Shown here in pieces: positions 5,113-21,828 of a stretch of 64,000 nt of DNA. Made by a program: the position numbers and the translations under genes. Source of the stretch: Haloplasmatales bacterium 4B (GTDB lineage: Bacteria; Bacillota_I; Bacilli_A; Haloplasmatales; Haloplasmataceae); contig NSKI01000002.1 of the NCBI GenBank assembly GCA_003586005.1, positions 1 to 64,000 on the forward strand, written 5' to 3'. The notes under the pieces were generated by a model. That model did not search any database and was not told the DNA's origin. It saw only the letters and a program-made list of their open reading frames with translations. Position 1 is the first letter of the stretch; each line of letters opens with the position of its first letter.

Positions 5113-5153
5113 ATGTTAAATTTGATTTATAATATCAAGTGGGAGTGAGTTGT

Positions 5154-5504
5154 ATGAGTTTATCAGTTTATTTATTTATTAAAGCTGATACACTATTTGT
5201 AAGGCTGAGTGGTGAGCTAGATCACCATACATCCTTTCAATTACGTGAAAGAATTAATTCTTTAATGGATCAGTATATTGTTAAAAACATTATCTTTAAT
5301 TTAAAGAAATTATCTTTTATGGACAGTAGTGGAATTGGTGTGATACTTGGTCGTTATAATCTTGTAAAAAGAAATAAAGGAATTATAATTGCTTGTGATT
5401 TAAATTCTACAATTGAAAAAATAATCAAAATATCAGGATTATATAAAATACTGGTTATTACTGAAAGTGAAGAGCAAGCATCAAAGTACTTGGGGGTGGC
5501 TTAA
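5154..5504 (+). CDS. spoIIAA: anti-sigma F factor antagonist SpoIIAA
   Basis: This STAS-domain protein of 116 residues is the size of B. subtilis SpoIIAA. Its unphosphorylated form binds the anti-sigma factor SpoIIAB and frees sigma F in the forespore; SpoIIAB inactivates it by phosphorylating the serine in MDSSGIG, visible near residue 55. ATG 5154 was preferred over GTG 5139 because the GGGAGTG ribosome-binding site lies between them. It is the first gene of the spoIIAA-spoIIAB-sigF operon, with spoIIAB beginning at the very next base. Confidence 0.93.
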   Translation: MSLSVYLFIKADTLFVRLSGELDHHTSFQLRERINSLMDQYIVKNIIFNLKKLSFMDSSGIGVILGRYNLVKRNKGIIIACDLNSTIEKIIKISGLYKILVITESEEQASKYLGVA

Positions 5505-5951
5505 ATGTCTATAAGAGAAAATCATGCTGAAATTATATTTGATGCCATTAGTGAGAACGAGGCCTTTGCACGGATTGTTGTTTCTGGTTTTATTATGCCC
5601 ATTGATCCAACAATAGATCAATTAAATGAATTTAAAACTATTGTTTCTGAGGCTGTAACCAATTGTGTTATCCACGCTTATGAAAATAAGGGAGGGAAAA
5701 TAAAACTAATTTTAGATTGTTATGATAATGAAATTACCATGGCGATAATCGACTATGGAAATGGTATAGGTGATATTGATCAAGCCAAAGAATTATTTTA
5801 TACATCTAAACCAGAAGAAGAACGGACAGGTATGGGACTTACTATTATGGAAGTTTTTTCTGATGAATTTTATATCCATTCAAAATTGGGCGAAGGAACA
5901 ATAGTTAAGGTGAAAAAACACATTATTAATAGTCAACAGGAATATGCTTAA
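5505..5951 (+). CDS. spoIIAB: anti-sigma F factor SpoIIAB (serine kinase)
   Basis: A GHKL-type ATPase of 148 residues that holds sigma F inactive in the predivisional cell and phosphorylates SpoIIAA. The N-box EAVTNCVIHAYE, the G1 box DYGNGIGD and the G2 box TGMGLTIME are all present in order. It starts immediately after the spoIIAA stop, with GGGGGTGG inside spoIIAA as the ribosome-binding site, so translation is probably coupled. It overlaps the start of sigF. Confidence 0.95.
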   Translation: MSIRENHAEIIFDAISENEAFARIVVSGFIMPIDPTIDQLNEFKTIVSEAVTNCVIHAYENKGGKIKLILDCYDNEITMAIIDYGNGIGDIDQAKELFYTSKPEEERTGMGLTIMEVFSDEFYIHSKLGEGTIVKVKKHIINSQQEYA

Positions 5952-6615
5952 TATGATTGAAAAAGCAGAAACAAAGTTAATTGAAGATAATTACAAATTA
6001 GTGTGGTCTGTTGTTAACAAGTTTCATTATTTGCGAGCTGAAAAAGAGGACTTATTTCAATCAGGTTGCATTGGTTTAATTATGGCAGCAAAAAAGTTTG
6101 ATGTTTCCCGGGGAAATGCCTTTTCAACATTCGCAATCCCGTATATTTTAGGGGAGATAAAAAACTATTTACGAAATAAAAATCATATTAAAGTTAGTAA
6201 AAAGATTCTTTCTTTACAAAGAAAAATTAATAAAGTTATCGAATTTGATGGTAATATTTCAATTAATGATATTGCTAAGAAACTAGATATTCCCTATGAA
6301 GATGTTGTTATGAGTTATAACAATAATTATAATAAAGCCTTATCTTTAGAAAATAATATATTTGAAGATAACAAGACTTCACTCAGTGATATGAAAACGA
6401 TTGATAATAAATATGATATTGATAAAAGTAATTTAGAAATTAAAGATCTTGTTAAGCAGTTTTCACAAGTAGAAAAGAAAATCCTGTTTTATCGGTTTTA
6501 TTATGGATTTAACCAAAATGAAACTGCAATGCAATTAAAAATATCGCAATCTAAAGTATCACGATTAGAAAAGAAAATTACAAATGAGTTTAGAAAATAT
6601 TATATGATTGAATAA
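5944..6615 (+). CDS. sigF: RNA polymerase sigma-F factor (SpoIIAC)
   Basis: A sigma-70 family protein of 223 residues, somewhat shorter than the B. subtilis protein (255). Region 2 (EKEDLFQSGCIGLIMAAKKFD, then STFAIPYILGEIKNYLR), region 3 and the region 4 helix-turn-helix (FNQNETAMQLKISQSKVSRLE) are all visible. It directs forespore-specific transcription after septation. The ATG at 5944 overlaps spoIIAB by eight bases. The only Shine-Dalgarno-like sequence (CAGGA, 5937-5941) is better spaced for the in-frame ATG at 5953, which may be the true start. A strong terminator follows. Confidence 0.93.
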   Translation: MLNMIEKAETKLIEDNYKLVWSVVNKFHYLRAEKEDLFQSGCIGLIMAAKKFDVSRGNAFSTFAIPYILGEIKNYLRNKNHIKVSKKILSLQRKINKVIEFDGNISINDIAKKLDIPYEDVVMSYNNNYNKALSLENNIFEDNKTSLSDMKTIDNKYDIDKSNLEIKDLVKQFSQVEKKILFYRFYYGFNQNETAMQLKISQSKVSRLEKKITNEFRKYYMIE

Positions 6616-6662
6616 AACTTACCAAGTCTATTTGAATAGATAATGTGTAAGTTTTTTTTTCA
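6614..6662 (+). terminator. terminator of the spoIIA operon
   Basis: AAAACTTAC pairs with GTAAGTTTT across an internal ~22-base region and runs into nine or more T residues. It overlaps the sigF stop and separates spoIIA from spoVA. Confidence 0.8.
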
Positions 6663-6717
6663 TAATTTTATTAAATACGACAAATATTATAAATAGGTTA
6701 ATTCAAGGAGGAATTAT

Positions 6718-7155
6718 ATGAATAAAGATTACTCTAAAATAATTAATAAAAATGCTGTAAAACCTAAATATTTTAAAAATTCATTTTTAGCGTTTATTGT
6801 TGGTGGTAGCGTTGGTGTATTTGGTCAAGCACTTATAGATTTATACGTAAATGTATTTGAAGTGGATAAAGTTAACGCTAATTCATTAATGTTAGTTACA
6901 TTAATATTAATAGCCGCGCTAACAACTGGTTTGGGAATTTATGATTACTTTGGTCAATTTGGTGGAGCTGGAGCTTTTGTACCGATTACTGGCTTCTCTA
7001 ATTCGATGACTAGTGCGGCATTAGAAGGTAAAAGCGAAGGTATAACTTTAGGAATAGGTGCTAGTATGTTTAAATTAGCTGGAAGTGTTATTGTCTTTGG
7101 AGTAGTGTCTGCTTATATATTAGGACTAATTCGCTATATCTTCTTTATGTCTTAG
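6718..7155 (+). CDS. spoVAC: stage V sporulation protein AC
   Basis: SpoVAC is an inner-membrane component of the channel that takes dipicolinic acid into the forespore and releases it at germination. The 145-residue protein shows the family signature FLAFIVGGSVGVFGQALIDL near the start, YDYFGQFGGAGAFVPITGFS in the middle, and four hydrophobic segments. The RBS is AAGGAGGAATT. It opens a spoVAC-AD-AE-AF operon. SpoVAA and SpoVAB, present in B. subtilis, are missing, as in clostridia. The AT-rich leader has a CATAATT...CAAATATTA pair that could be a sigma-G-type promoter, but the match is weak. Confidence 0.94.
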   Translation: MNKDYSKIINKNAVKPKYFKNSFLAFIVGGSVGVFGQALIDLYVNVFEVDKVNANSLMLVTLILIAALTTGLGIYDYFGQFGGAGAFVPITGFSNSMTSAALEGKSEGITLGIGASMFKLAGSVIVFGVVSAYILGLIRYIFFMS

Positions 7156-7167
7156 GAAGGTGATAAT

Positions 7168-8178
7168 ATGAAAAAGCAAGCAACATATGAATTAAACAGT
7201 GGTGTGTATATAAAAGGTACAGGAACATCTGTTGGACCCCTAGAAAAAGCAGGCCCTTTAGGTGAATATTTTGATCGGAACCATGAAGATAATTATTGTG
7301 GTGAAAAAAATTGGGAAACTGCTGAACAAAGATTATTAGAAGATGCAATAACTATTTCAATAGCTAAATCAGGATTACATGATGAAGATATTGATTTGGT
7401 GCTTGCAGGAGATCTTATAAATCAAAATGTAATCAGTAATTATGTCATGCGTGACCATGACATACCCTTTTTAGGCATGTATGGAGCCTGTTCAACATCT
7501 ATGCAAACCTTACTTACTGCAGCCTTGCTTATTAGCAATGGACAATTTAAACATGTTATTTCTGCTGCTAGTTCTCATAATTCGACTGCTGAACGTCAAT
7601 TTAGATATCCTACAGAATATGGTGGACCAAAGCCTGAAACAATGACATATACCGTAACTGGAGCAGGTTCAGCTGTTGTAACTAATGTTAAAAGTGATAT
7701 TAAATTAACTTCCGTTACTATTGGTCGAGTTATCGATAGTAAACAAAATAATCCAAACGATATGGGAAGTGCCATGGCACCAGCAGCAAGTGATACAATA
7801 ATAAGACATTTAAAAGACTTAGATATAAAACCAAATTATTATGACATGATTGTTACAGGTGATTTATCTAAAGTTGGAACTAAAATCCTCCTAGAGATAA
7901 TGAAAGAAGAAGGAATTGATATCGAAAATATACATGATGATTGTGGTAAACTCATTTACACTGAAGACCAACCTGTTTTTGCTGGTGGAAGTGGTTGTGC
8001 GTGTTGCGCGGTAGTTACATTTGGATATATAAAAAACTTACTTGATACAAATAAAATAAAACGGGTTTTAGTTGTAGCTACAGGAGCATTACTAAATCCT
8101 GTAATGATGCTCCAAAACGAAACCATTCCTTGTATTGCTCATGCTGTTGCATTTGAAAAAGTAAACGAAAATAATTAA
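7168..8178 (+). CDS. spoVAD: stage V sporulation protein AD
   Basis: SpoVAD has a thiolase-like fold and binds dipicolinic acid at the membrane face of the SpoVA channel. The 336-residue length is typical. Family blocks are visible: GVYIKGTGTSVGPLEKAGPLG at the N-terminus, FLGMYGACSTSMQT with the thiolase-position cysteine, ERQFRYPTEYGGPKPE, and the late GGSGCACCAVVTFGYI. It lies 12 bases after spoVAC with GGAAGGTGAT as ribosome-binding site. Confidence 0.95.
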   Translation: MKKQATYELNSGVYIKGTGTSVGPLEKAGPLGEYFDRNHEDNYCGEKNWETAEQRLLEDAITISIAKSGLHDEDIDLVLAGDLINQNVISNYVMRDHDIPFLGMYGACSTSMQTLLTAALLISNGQFKHVISAASSHNSTAERQFRYPTEYGGPKPETMTYTVTGAGSAVVTNVKSDIKLTSVTIGRVIDSKQNNPNDMGSAMAPAASDTIIRHLKDLDIKPNYYDMIVTGDLSKVGTKILLEIMKEEGIDIENIHDDCGKLIYTEDQPVFAGGSGCACCAVVTFGYIKNLLDTNKIKRVLVVATGALLNPVMMLQNETIPCIAHAVAFEKVNENN

Positions 8179-8190
8179 AGAGGTGGAAAC

Positions 8191-8541
8191 ATGATTTATT
8201 TGAACGCATTTTTGGTAGCAGGTGGAATTTGTGTAATAGGGCAATTACTAGTAGATATTTTTAAATTGACACCTGGTCATGTTACTAGTTGGTTTGTTGT
8301 CGTAGGAGCAGTACTGGATTCTTTTAATATTTATGACAATTTAGTTAAATTTGCTGGTGCAGGCGCACTAGTACCAATTACAAGTTTTGGGCATTCATTA
8401 CTTCATGGTGCTTTAAGTAAAGCAGAAGAAATGGGAGTAGTTGGAATTGGGATGGGTATGTTTGATTTAACAGCAAGTGGTATTACAGCGGCAATTATTT
8501 TTGCCTTTTTAGTCGCCATAATCTTTAAACCAAAAGGATAA
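8191..8541 (+). CDS. spoVAE: stage V sporulation protein AE (SpoVAEb type)
   Basis: A 116-residue membrane protein with the same [18 protein letters not shown] motif that SpoVAC carries in related form, and three or four hydrophobic segments. It forms the dipicolinate channel together with SpoVAC. It is spaced 12 bases from spoVAD with AGAGGTGG as RBS. The B. subtilis operon also has a soluble SpoVAEa, which is absent here. Confidence 0.93.
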
Positions 8542-15423: not shown

Positions 15424-15488
15424 CAATAAAAAAAGGCTGATAATAATCAGCCTCACTGATAATAATCAGCCTCACTGATAATAATCAG
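15424..15488 (-). terminator. hppA terminator within three tandem 19-bp hairpin repeats
   Basis: CTGATAATAATCAG starts at 15437, 15456 and 15475, a strict 19-base period; each copy is a small hairpin (CTGAT-AATA-ATCAG). Read on the minus strand, the last one is a proper terminator: GGCTGAT-TATT-ATCAGCC followed by seven T residues. The other two copies sit between it and the hppA stop. Confidence 0.75.
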
Positions 15489-15503
15489 TCTCAAATATTT
15501 AAT

Positions 15504-17842: not shown

Positions 17843-19747
17843 ATGAGTACAATTAATAATGTAGTCAATTCAGATAAACAAAAAAAAATCAAGTTACCAC
17901 ATATGTTTCAATGTAATGAAGAAACTTATGTTCATGAAGATAGTGACGAGGTTATACACCAACATCAAATAAATTTGTCGAAAATTGCGAAAAGTTATCG
18001 TAGTTATCAAGACAAAAATACTAAAGGAAATTCTTTAGCAAGTAGTGCAAAGAACTTAGGAAATATAAGTTGTAATGATATAACAAAATCTTTATATGAT
18101 TATTTAGGTGAGTTAAAAGCTATATATTCAAATAAAAACAAGATTAATATCAATGATTCACATGATATTAATCAAACAAAGATTGATATGAACCAAGACA
18201 AGCTTGATATTAATCAAAACAAGTTTGATATTAATCAAGATAAACTTGATATGAACCAAGACAAGCTTGATATTAATCAAGACAAGCTTGATATGAACCA
18301 AATTATAAATGATACACAAAATTTCAATCAAGACAAGCTTGATATTAATCAAAACAAGTTTGATATTAATCAAGATAAACTTGATATTAATCAAAACAAG
18401 TTTGATATTAATCAAGATAAACTTGATATGAACCAAGACAAGCTTGATATTAATCAAGACAAGCTTGATATGAACCAAATTATAAATGATACACAAAATT
18501 TCAATCAAGACAAGCTTGATATTAATCAAAACAAGTTTGATATTAATCAAGATAAACTTGATATTAATCAAAACAAGTTTGATATTAATCAAGATAAACT
18601 TGATATGAACCAAGACAAGCTTGATATTAATCAAAACAAGCTTGATATGAACCAAATTATAAATGATACACAAAATTTCAATCAAGACAAGCTTGATATT
18701 AATCAAGACAAGCTTGATATTAATCAAGACAAGCTTGATATTAATCAAAACAAGTTTGATATTAATCAAAACAAGTTTGATATTAATCAAAACAAGTTTG
18801 ATATTAATCAAGATAAACTTGATATTAATCAAGATAAACTTGATATTAACCAAGACAAGCTTGATATAAACCAAATTATAAATGATACACAAAATTTCAA
18901 TCAAGACAAGCTTGATATTAATCAAGACAAGCTTGATATTAATCAAGACAAGCTTGATATTAATCAAAACAAGTTTGATATTAATCAAAACAAGTTTGAT
19001 ATTAATCAAAACAAGTTTGATATTAATCAAGATAAACTTGATATTAATCAAGATAAACTTGATATTAACCAAGACAAGCTTGATATAAACCAAATTATAA
19101 ATGATACACAAAATTTCAATCAAGACAAGCTTGATATTAATCAAGACAAGCTTGATATTAATCAAGACAAGCTTGATATTAATCAAGACAAGCTTGATAT
19201 TAATCAAGACAAGCTTGATATTAATCAAGACAAGCTTGATATTAATCAAGACAAGCTTGATATTAATCAAGACAAGCTTGATATTAACAAGGAAAAATTA
19301 ATTGAGGATGTAGTTTTAGATAAAGGTATATCTGCTCATAATAATGAAGAAAGTAAAGGTTATTATGAAGATTTTGAAAACAAATTGGATTTAGATGAGA
19401 TTATAAAATCATCTGAAAAAGAAATTCATAATACTAAAGATCAGAAATTATTATTGAAGAATTTAATAAATGATATTAATATTAATTCTCCAAGCAATGC
19501 ATTCTATGATAGTTCTAATTTTGACAAAAATATTAAATCAATGCTTAAAGATACAGATGATAAAAATAATGGTGATATGGATGGACAAGACTATTATCTT
19601 GAAGATGATGATATGATAAAGAGAAGATTTCCATTTATAATAATTTTGATTGTTATTTCGCTAATAATTGTAGGATATATATATAAGGATATAATTATTG
19701 AACAAATAGAAAAACTAAATATTCAAGAATTATTGGAAAAATTTTAG
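17843..19747 (+). CDS. heptad-repeat, C-terminally membrane-anchored protein of unknown function
   Basis: This 634-residue protein has a ~108-residue N-terminal region without a signal peptide. Then come 372 residues made of 46 seven-residue units (consensus INQDKLD, with the variants INQNKFD and MNQDKLD) broken by five copies of the ten-residue spacer NQIINDTQNF. A ~130-residue acidic tail follows, with one transmembrane helix (FPFIIILIVISLIIVGYIY) about 25 residues from the end. This predicts a tail-anchored protein with a long cytosolic repeat arm. The hydrophobic residues are spaced 2 and 5, not the 3 and 4 of a classic coiled coil, so the fold is unclear. The RBS is AAAGGGTGAT and cmk follows after eight bases. 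I recognise no family. Confidence 0.75.
   Translation: MSTINNVVNSDKQKKIKLPHMFQCNEETYVHEDSDEVIHQHQINLSKIAKSYRSYQDKNTKGNSLASSAKNLGNISCNDITKSLYDYLGELKAIYSNKNKININDSHDINQTKIDMNQDKLDINQNKFDINQDKLDMNQDKLDINQDKLDMNQIINDTQNFNQDKLDINQNKFDINQDKLDINQNKFDINQDKLDMNQDKLDINQDKLDMNQIINDTQNFNQDKLDINQNKFDINQDKLDINQNKFDINQDKLDMNQDKLDINQNKLDMNQIINDTQNFNQDKLDINQDKLDINQDKLDINQNKFDINQNKFDINQNKFDINQDKLDINQDKLDINQDKLDINQIINDTQNFNQDKLDINQDKLDINQDKLDINQNKFDINQNKFDINQNKFDINQDKLDINQDKLDINQDKLDINQIINDTQNFNQDKLDINQDKLDINQDKLDINQDKLDINQDKLDINQDKLDINQDKLDINQDKLDINKEKLIEDVVLDKGISAHNNEESKGYYEDFENKLDLDEIIKSSEKEIHNTKDQKLLLKNLINDININSPSNAFYDSSNFDKNIKSMLKDTDDKNNGDMDGQDYYLEDDDMIKRRFPFIIILIVISLIIVGYIYKDIIIEQIEKLNIQELLEKF
18167..19282 (+). 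repeat. coding 21-bp tandem repeat with 177/219-bp higher-order period
   Basis: The unit GATATTAATCAAGACAAGCTT and close variants repeat in frame 46 times; many copies contain a HindIII site. Spacers beginning AATTATAAATGATACAC lie at 18301, 18478, 18655, 18874 and 19093, giving higher-order periods of 177, 177, 219 and 219 bases, a difference of exactly two units. The last eight units are identical, a sign of recent expansion. Confidence 0.95.
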
Positions 19748-19755
19748 GAGGAATC

Positions 19756-21828
19756 ATGGACTTTATTAATGTAGCAATTGACGGGCCAGCAGGTGCAGGT
19801 AAGAGTACGATTGCAAAAAAATTAGCTAAAGAGCTTAAGTTTGTTTATGTTGATACAGGGGCAATGTATCGGGCGATAACATATTTGGCTTTAAAATTAA
19901 ATATTGATATTAACGACGAAACAACCTATTGCTTTTTAGATAATATTGACTTGAAATTAACTAAAGATGATAAAGTTTTATTAAATGGCGAAGATATTTC
20001 TAAGGAAATAAGGGAACAAGATGTAACAGCTGCAGTTTCACTAGTCTCATCAAAAAAAGTTGTCCGTGATAAGATTGTACCTATGCAGCGACTAATGGCA
20101 GAAGAAGCTAATGTTATAATGGATGGAAGAGACATAGGAACAAATGTTTTAAAAGATGCTACATTCAAATTCTTTTTGACCGCATCTGTAGAAGAAAGAG
20201 CTAATAGAAGGTATTTACAGTTAAAATCAAATCAAAATGTTGATTTAGAGAAAATTAAAGAAGAGATTATTAAACGTGATAATTTTGATACATTTCGTGA
20301 ATTAAATCCACTAAGGAAAGCTCAAGACGCTATTGAAATTGACTCATCAAATCTTAGAATTGATGAAGTCGTAAACAAATTAACAGGTATTATTTTAGGG
20401 AAGGTGAAACACATGAATGATAATGAAATCTACAATATTGAAAAATTTAGAGTTGGACAAACTATAGAAGGAGAAGTAATTGAAGTTACTGACCAAGAAG
20501 TAATTGTAAATTTTAACTATGCTACCGAGGGAAGAATTTACCTAAATGAACTTACTTTTGAAAAAGTTGAAAAGGCTACCGATTTATATAAAGTGGGAGA
20601 TACAATTCAAGCAAAAATAAAAAAAATAAATGATGAAGTTGCTTTGTTATCACGTCTTGATATTGAAAAAGGACAAAGTTTACGTAAAATAGAAAATAAA
20701 TATAACCATAAAAGCACTGTCACAGGTAAGGTTCTAAGTGAACAAAAGGGTGTTTTTATTGTTAATGTTTATGGATATAATTGTATTATGCCTAAGAGTG
20801 AAGTAGACCCTGACTTTAATTTTGATCAAAATTCTTTATTAGAAAAATCTATTAAAGTAAAAATTATTGAAATTAAGCAAGATCGAAGAAACACAAAAGT
20901 AGTTGTTTCAAGAAAAATAGTTATCAAGCAAGAATTATTTAAAGAAAGATTAAAAACTTATAAAAATATTGAAAAAGACGCTATTTATGAAGGTCAAGTA
21001 GTTAGAATTGAAAAGTATGGGTTACTAGTTGTTGCTAACTCATATCAAGGGTTAGTTCCTTTAAGAGAAATATCTCATTTACCATTTGCTGATATTAATG
21101 ATGTTGTTAAAATTGGCGATAAAGTAAATGTTAAAGTAATTGATAAAAATGACGATAAACTCCAAGTTTTATATTCAATTAAAGCACTACTACCAAAGCC
21201 ATGGGAAGTAGTGGGAGAAAGCATTAAAGATGGAGATGTTATTGAGGGTGAAGTTGTAAGATTAACTGACTTTGGGGCTTTTGTTAACGTGTATCCTTTT
21301 GTAGATGGATTACTTCATAAAAATGAGTTCTCTTATAATCCTTATGTTAATATGTTTGACCATCTTGTTGAGGGTCAAAAAATAACTGTTAAGGTAAATT
21401 ATATTGATGTTAATCGTGAAAAACTATCTTTATCAGTTCGGGCATTAAAAGAGGATCCATGGTATACATGTAATTTAAAACAATTTGATATTGTAGATAT
21501 GAAAGTTATAGATTTTATTGATAATGACGCAATAGTTGAATATGTAGAAGATGTTGTGGGATTATTAACAAAAAATCATGTGACAAGCGAAAGAAGAATA
21601 ACTAAAGCTGAGGATGAGTTAACAGTTGGACAAACTATAAAAGTTAAAGTTATTAATTTTAACCCTAACGATAGAGATATGCTTGTCAGTATTCGTCGTA
21701 TAAAAGATGATGAGGAAAGGCAAGAGTATGTAAAATACATGAAAAAACAAAATGAAGTTAAAAATGATACATTAGGTGACATGTTTGGGGATAAGTTAAA
21801 ACAATTGCTAGATGATGAAAACAAATAA
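19756..21828 (+). CDS. cmk: cytidylate kinase fused to ribosomal protein S1-like domains
   Basis: Residues 1-~215 are a CMP/dCMP kinase: Walker A GPAGAGKST, VDTGAMYRAI, IMDGRDIGTNV and the R-rich lid. Residues ~220-690 carry about five S1 RNA-binding domains (for example GQTIEGEVIEVTDQEV, GDVIEGEVVRLTDFGAFVNV). In B. subtilis these are two neighbouring genes, cmk and ypfD (rpsA-like). Here they share one frame, joined at LGKVKHMNDNE with no stop. The S1 part probably binds mRNA at the ribosome; the kinase part feeds pyrimidine nucleotide synthesis. An internal ribosome-binding site and ATG at the junction could also yield S1 alone. It follows the repeat-protein gene and precedes der. Confidence 0.93.
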   Translation: MDFINVAIDGPAGAGKSTIAKKLAKELKFVYVDTGAMYRAITYLALKLNIDINDETTYCFLDNIDLKLTKDDKVLLNGEDISKEIREQDVTAAVSLVSSKKVVRDKIVPMQRLMAEEANVIMDGRDIGTNVLKDATFKFFLTASVEERANRRYLQLKSNQNVDLEKIKEEIIKRDNFDTFRELNPLRKAQDAIEIDSSNLRIDEVVNKLTGIILGKVKHMNDNEIYNIEKFRVGQTIEGEVIEVTDQEVIVNFNYATEGRIYLNELTFEKVEKATDLYKVGDTIQAKIKKINDEVALLSRLDIEKGQSLRKIENKYNHKSTVTGKVLSEQKGVFIVNVYGYNCIMPKSEVDPDFNFDQNSLLEKSIKVKIIEIKQDRRNTKVVVSRKIVIKQELFKERLKTYKNIEKDAIYEGQVVRIEKYGLLVVANSYQGLVPLREISHLPFADINDVVKIGDKVNVKVIDKNDDKLQVLYSIKALLPKPWEVVGESIKDGDVIEGEVVRLTDFGAFVNVYPFVDGLLHKNEFSYNPYVNMFDHLVEGQKITVKVNYIDVNREKLSLSVRALKEDPWYTCNLKQFDIVDMKVIDFIDNDAIVEYVEDVVGLLTKNHVTSERRITKAEDELTVGQTIKVKVINFNPNDRDMLVSIRRIKDDEERQEYVKYMKKQNEVKNDTLGDMFGDKLKQLLDDENK
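20401..20415 (+). promoter_or_regulatory. internal ribosome-binding site and start at the cmk/S1 junction
   Basis: AAGGTG (20401-20406) stands six bases before an in-frame ATG at 20413, exactly at the boundary between kinase and S1 domains. It looks like the original start of a separate S1 gene that lost the stop codon before it, and it may still be used. Confidence 0.6.

Follow-up and report, generated by a model that had tools for sequence, protein, structure and literature searches.

The cmk-S1-der-gpsA operon of Haloplasmatales bacterium 4B begins with a gene whose product carries a long series of seven-residue repeats and ends in a hydrophobic helix, which raises the question of what such a protein does and what its repeats contribute. 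The gene lies in a 64,000-nucleotide stretch of DNA (hereafter the window), and a preliminary description had rightly placed it at the head of the operon but had treated the heptad arm as the essence of the protein. Here, we define the family to which the protein belongs, trace the origin and predicted shape of its repeats, and compare it with proteins encoded at the same position across the class. The analysis leaves as the main puzzle the uncharacterised anchor protein rather than its repeats.

Consistent with the preliminary description, which had recognised no known family, searches of Pfam, NCBIfam, PHROGs and PDB sequences returned low-complexity or chance matches only, and none of these families fits. 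A PHROG tape-measure match (2e-24) was rejected as it falls almost wholly within the repeats, and the super-repeat had no match in a phage collection. A literature search on the gene adjoining cmk in syn3A or Mycoplasma yielded nothing useful.

The family immediately 5′ of cmk

Using the C-terminal 148 residues as query, we found an orthologue immediately 5′ of cmk in 7/7 other Haloplasmataceae genomes, where the preliminary description had suggested looking for homologues of the non-repeat flanks. The orthologues are about 229–266 residues long, apart from one of 462 residues (G005), and none of the seven contains heptads; the view of the arm as the core of the protein is therefore not supported. 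Alignment of the eight proteins revealed an N-terminal peptide in which H20 and F22 are invariant (8/8), and a helical core module of about 57 residues with the family consensus NIDEIIKTSEQEI..KDQK.LLK.LIDDIN..S....YDDS.FE.NI..II. The window protein has the peptide, the module and the C-terminal transmembrane (TM) helix, and its heptads occupy the place of a linker that in its relatives is acidic and varies in length. The non-repeat C-terminal part, previously put at some 130 residues, measures about 150.

Table 1. Features of the tail-anchored protein gene and its surroundings in the window.
Feature	Position	Strand	Basis
Extended −10 promoter element TGCTATAAT, followed by conserved leader to start codon	17802–17810	+	Family comparison
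Tail-anchored protein gene	17843–19747	+	Single ATG-initiated open frame, 634 aa, 0 internal stops; orthologues 5′ of cmk
N-terminal peptide IKLPHMF	17888–17908	+	Alignment of eight; consensus [IK][KR]xPHMF[QR]
Heptad array	18167–19294 (aa 109–484)	+	INQDKLD-type units; run broken by five NQIINDTQN spacers
Helical core module, NKLDLDEIIKSSEKEI...MLKDT	19379–19555 (aa 513–571)	+	Best-conserved alignment block; faint f11 match
C-terminal TM helix, KRR before, 18-residue tail after	19628–19690 (aa 596–616)	+	Hydrophobic stretch; AlphaFold2 helix
cmk-S1 fusion gene	19756–21828	+	Pfam Cytidylate_kin and S1; 8 bp past tail-anchored gene

A profile of the family matched 8/8 Haloplasmataceae genomes, whereas 387 others of the class gave no convincing match; the window gene, itself included in the profile, scored E values of 4.6e-37 and 1.6e-30. 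The window protein is a fast-evolving, membrane-anchored member of the family defined here, whose genes, so far unannotated, keep their position at the start of a core operon in Haloplasmataceae. The tail anchor that had been proposed is borne out by the C-terminal hydrophobic stretch, modelled as a TM helix in both of our AlphaFold2 models (pLDDT about 80), and the lack of a signal peptide supports the earlier view that the bulk of the protein would be cytosolic. The orthologue model is otherwise helical or disordered, its one TM helix being fairly confident.

The surroundings of the gene are conserved as well. All six family genes read are preceded by a TG(T)GCTATAATT element and by the greater part of the leader TGATATATTTT(T)AAAGGGTGATT. 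The tail-anchored gene and cmk are 8 bp apart in 5/6 loci measured and 20 bp apart in the remaining one, both genes lying on the same strand in the window. The cmk and S1 parts form one fused gene in five family genomes, including that of the window, and are separate neighbours in three, which means that the fusion is not a constant feature. In one pair of genomes omega was 0.19 for the tail-anchored gene versus 0.06 for cmk-S1, with 0.56 in a more distant pair; by this measure the tail-anchored gene is constrained, yet evolves faster than its neighbour.

Elsewhere in the window, two forward-strand ORFs (190–735 and 1640–2431) contain RHS/YD-repeat core ends (SRFINADGLIGKTGDILGHNLYSYCQNNPVMMVD type). 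A small ORF for a membrane protein comes after each of them, and these pairs are possibly polymorphic toxin tips with immunity genes. Downstream of a pyrophosphatase gene lie three copies of a palindromic-looking 19-bp tandem repeat (CTGATAATAATCAGCCTCA; 15437–15493).

The heptad array and its predicted shape

The array comprises exactly 46 in-frame units of the INQDKLD type (pattern [IMF]N[QK][DNTE]K[LFI]D), the number given by the preliminary description. The 73-residue super-repeat described there is present in two copies only, the super-units of the first half of the array being 59 residues long. Tandem Repeats Finder scored the 177- and 219-bp super-units at 1295–1488 and the 21-bp units at 185–341. 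At the DNA level, two 219-bp super-repeats are identical at 219/219 positions, two 177-bp super-repeats match at 176/177, and the longest stretch repeated exactly in direct orientation is 318 bp; these near-identical copies indicate that the array grew recently, as had been suspected. Because of the 318-bp exact repeat, the copy number depends on the quality of the source assembly (77 contigs) and could be off. A whole-genome scan found no second occurrence of the heptad pattern in the host, and a search of 197 further genomes of the class gave no match to the super-repeat. The heptads are a recent, in-frame, single-species expansion inside the linker, and they offer a clean natural case in which a linker of tens of residues has lengthened to about 376 and the gene has been retained.

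AlphaFold2 (six sequences) modelled the array as two helices, residues 130–350 and 361–493, with a block pLDDT mostly of 60–90 and dips to 35–50 in places; global confidence was low in both single-chain models (pTM 0.16 and 0.23). The array is accordingly predicted by the model to be a long helix, and the solenoid suggested earlier finds no support. The helical hydrophobic moment of the heptad is low (0.44, against 1.49 for a classical heptad), in keeping with the helix geometry pointed out in the preliminary description. Its further statement that the repeats are unlike coiled coils is not supported, since the heptad DDLRVNY of the Helicobacter pylori fucosyltransferase (FucT) has the same spacing and register and a moment of 0.46; low amphipathicity hence does not exclude a coiled coil. 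If helical throughout, the array would probably self-associate as a polar-core coiled coil, perhaps two-stranded or trimeric, with L at a and N at d.

The restriction of the heptads to one species of eight, together with the near-identity of the DNA units, would also fit repeats that expanded neutrally within a linker that is disordered, devoid of any structural role, and a composition with a net charge of −38 across 376 residues would suit a disordered chain. However, all 46 units keep the frame free of stops, the regular units differ by conservative substitutions (I/M/F, L/F, D/N), and the predicted helix reaches a block pLDDT of 90, and we consider a purely neutral array rather doubtful. 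At the other extreme, the array could be under selection as a filamentous arm or molecular ruler that fixes a distance by its length, a role reported for the heptads of H. pylori FucT (PMC3858298, PMC5358919). The FucT-like register, the membrane-proximal position and the considerable reach of a fully helical array speak for a ruler, but the seven orthologues manage without heptads, there is no enzyme domain to position, and the PDB match of the heptads to FucT (5zoi) is weak (E 0.93). Selection for arm length is therefore unlikely.

We consider it on balance probable that the window protein is a cytosolic adaptor, tethered to the membrane and equipped with two contact sites, in which the heptads serve as a length-tolerant spacer. 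The C-terminal helix would insert in the membrane with the N-terminus inside and the C-terminus outside, and the cytosolic part would offer the PHMF peptide and the membrane-proximal helical module as contact sites, joined by a linker that is free in sequence and length. An in-frame 21-bp unit would have multiplied by slippage or unequal crossing-over, inflating this linker to 46 heptads. Helical throughout, it would form a rod of about 56 nm, holding the N-terminal site well away from the membrane, and the rod itself would not be the working part. Both the adaptor role and the topology are what we infer from these features. The structural or translation/membrane role suggested in the preliminary description is possible.

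Candidate partners within the family and across the class

One conceivable partner of such an adaptor is the MreB-based contractile cytoskeleton of Haloplasma, to which the protein might serve as a tether. H. contractile is described as contractile and as having seven MreBs (PMC8432965), and most family genomes hold several MreB genes, five of them in one cluster in the window genome. Yet two genomes without MreB, G002 (99% complete) and G007, keep the gene 5′ of cmk, which disfavours the link and makes an MreB tether very improbable. The only MreB match in G002 is a weak one, in a 604-residue and probably DnaK-like frame. With respect to the envelope, H. contractile is described as wall-less and as lacking murE and murF (PMC7301438), and the window genome encodes three transpeptidase proteins. 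The window also holds sporulation genes, spoIVA among them; those on the forward strand at 5139–8541 look by their sequence like spoIIAA/AB, sigF and spoVAC/AD/AE, in a family whose type species is described as wall-less.

Beyond this family, we read the gene that precedes cmk in 60 genomes from the class, in addition to earlier loci. Ten other sampled families (f2, f4, f6, f7, f8, f11, f13, f17, f18 and f19) encode a tail-anchored protein there, and eight (f3, f9, f12, f14, f16, f20, f21 and f22) have an rluB-like pseudouridine synthase instead, where readable; positional counterparts exist in mycoplasma-like genomes. The window protein shares position and tail anchor with these class-wide proteins. 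When the cytosolic parts were compared profile to profile with hhalign, f13 with f19 was the only pair to score above shuffles. The core profile of Haloplasmataceae (f1) placed the five f11 proteins at the top of 29, in one register and at 7.2–3.8 bits, with about 5/2900 shuffles exceeding 7.2 bits, and the whole-length profile matched the f11 genome G074 (domain E 0.0015). On these profile scores homology between f1 and f11 is probable; the link to the remaining cmk-upstream families is positional only.

Among the 38 upstream proteins (36 tail-anchored and two soluble ones from f15), 28 carry [ST]RxxK/R within their first 30 residues, against 2.2 expected on shuffling, a pattern picked after viewing the proteins. 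The motif resembles the GpsB-binding motifs SRxxR(R/K) and TRxxYR (PMC6335420), and the families bearing it are those with DivIVA/GpsB-family matches. In many genomes with a tail-anchored gene before cmk, a small DivIVA/GpsB-like gene follows cmk on its contig at a distance of a few kb; in several families (f4, f7, f13 and f15) the small DivIVA-like gene lies about 4–15 kb downstream.

Within Haloplasmataceae the picture differs. The window protein lacks an N-terminal [ST]RxxK/R, and within the family it occurs only in two members, as TRSFR at residue 41–42, and in a third, at an unrelated site. No GpsB with the N-terminal binding domain is recognisable in the window genome, whose single DivIVA-like ORF is diverged (291 aa, E 0.0015, profile positions 29–114; G000:C74:30210–30458). 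DivIVA-like proteins of 269–309 residues are common to Haloplasmataceae, and in most of them the profile match begins at about position 25. As the N-terminal motif is absent and only a diverged DivIVA-like protein is present, the GpsB idea cannot be carried over directly to this family.

In a wider scenario, the genes before cmk across the class could form a single family of tail-anchored adaptors, ancient and evolving extremely fast, whose N-terminal [ST]RxxK/R motif would dock GpsB to the membrane, with Haloplasmataceae having lost recognisable GpsB and the DivIVA N-terminal domain and having rewired the protein, which in this species was stretched into the rod of about 56 nm. We regard this scenario as possible but tentative. 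The ancestral role, speculatively, might have been to dock envelope or division machinery through GpsB, a role lost or rewired in Haloplasmataceae. The class-wide version of the family gains in GpsB a concrete candidate partner.

Comparison with known systems

The closest parallel to the heptads is the tail of H. pylori FutA/FutB (PDB 5zoi), whose perfect heptads follow LxINxDx, with L-R-V-N-Y-D-D set against L-D-I-N-Q-D-K in the window protein. Both share the register L-x-I/V-N-x-D-x, a low helical moment and a varying copy number. For binding the membrane, the fucosyltransferase is known to have only an amphipathic tail. It differs in having an enzyme domain, which the window protein lacks, and in repeat number (4–12 reported in two strains versus 46), and the two are not homologous. 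The FucT heptads are reported to act as a length-setting element in dimers (PMC3858298, PMC5358919).

For the anchor protein itself, there is a likeness to YpbE and YrrS of Bacillus subtilis, bitopic partners of GpsB (PMC6335420). They are N-in membrane proteins with a cytosolic N-terminus, the topology predicted for the window protein, and they share an SRxxR-like N-terminal motif with the class-wide cmk-upstream proteins. The window protein differs in that it has neither this motif nor a LysM or DUF1510 domain outside the cell, and the connection is one of resemblance.

MacP, an accessory of a streptococcal cell-wall synthase, is small and cytosolic and is anchored by its C-terminus, a build that recalls the window protein. 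One f13 protein faintly matched the MacP model NF038277 (NCBIfam; E 0.024), but its 15.1 bits fall far below the cut-off of 45, and the window protein had no match to the model in the NCBIfam search.
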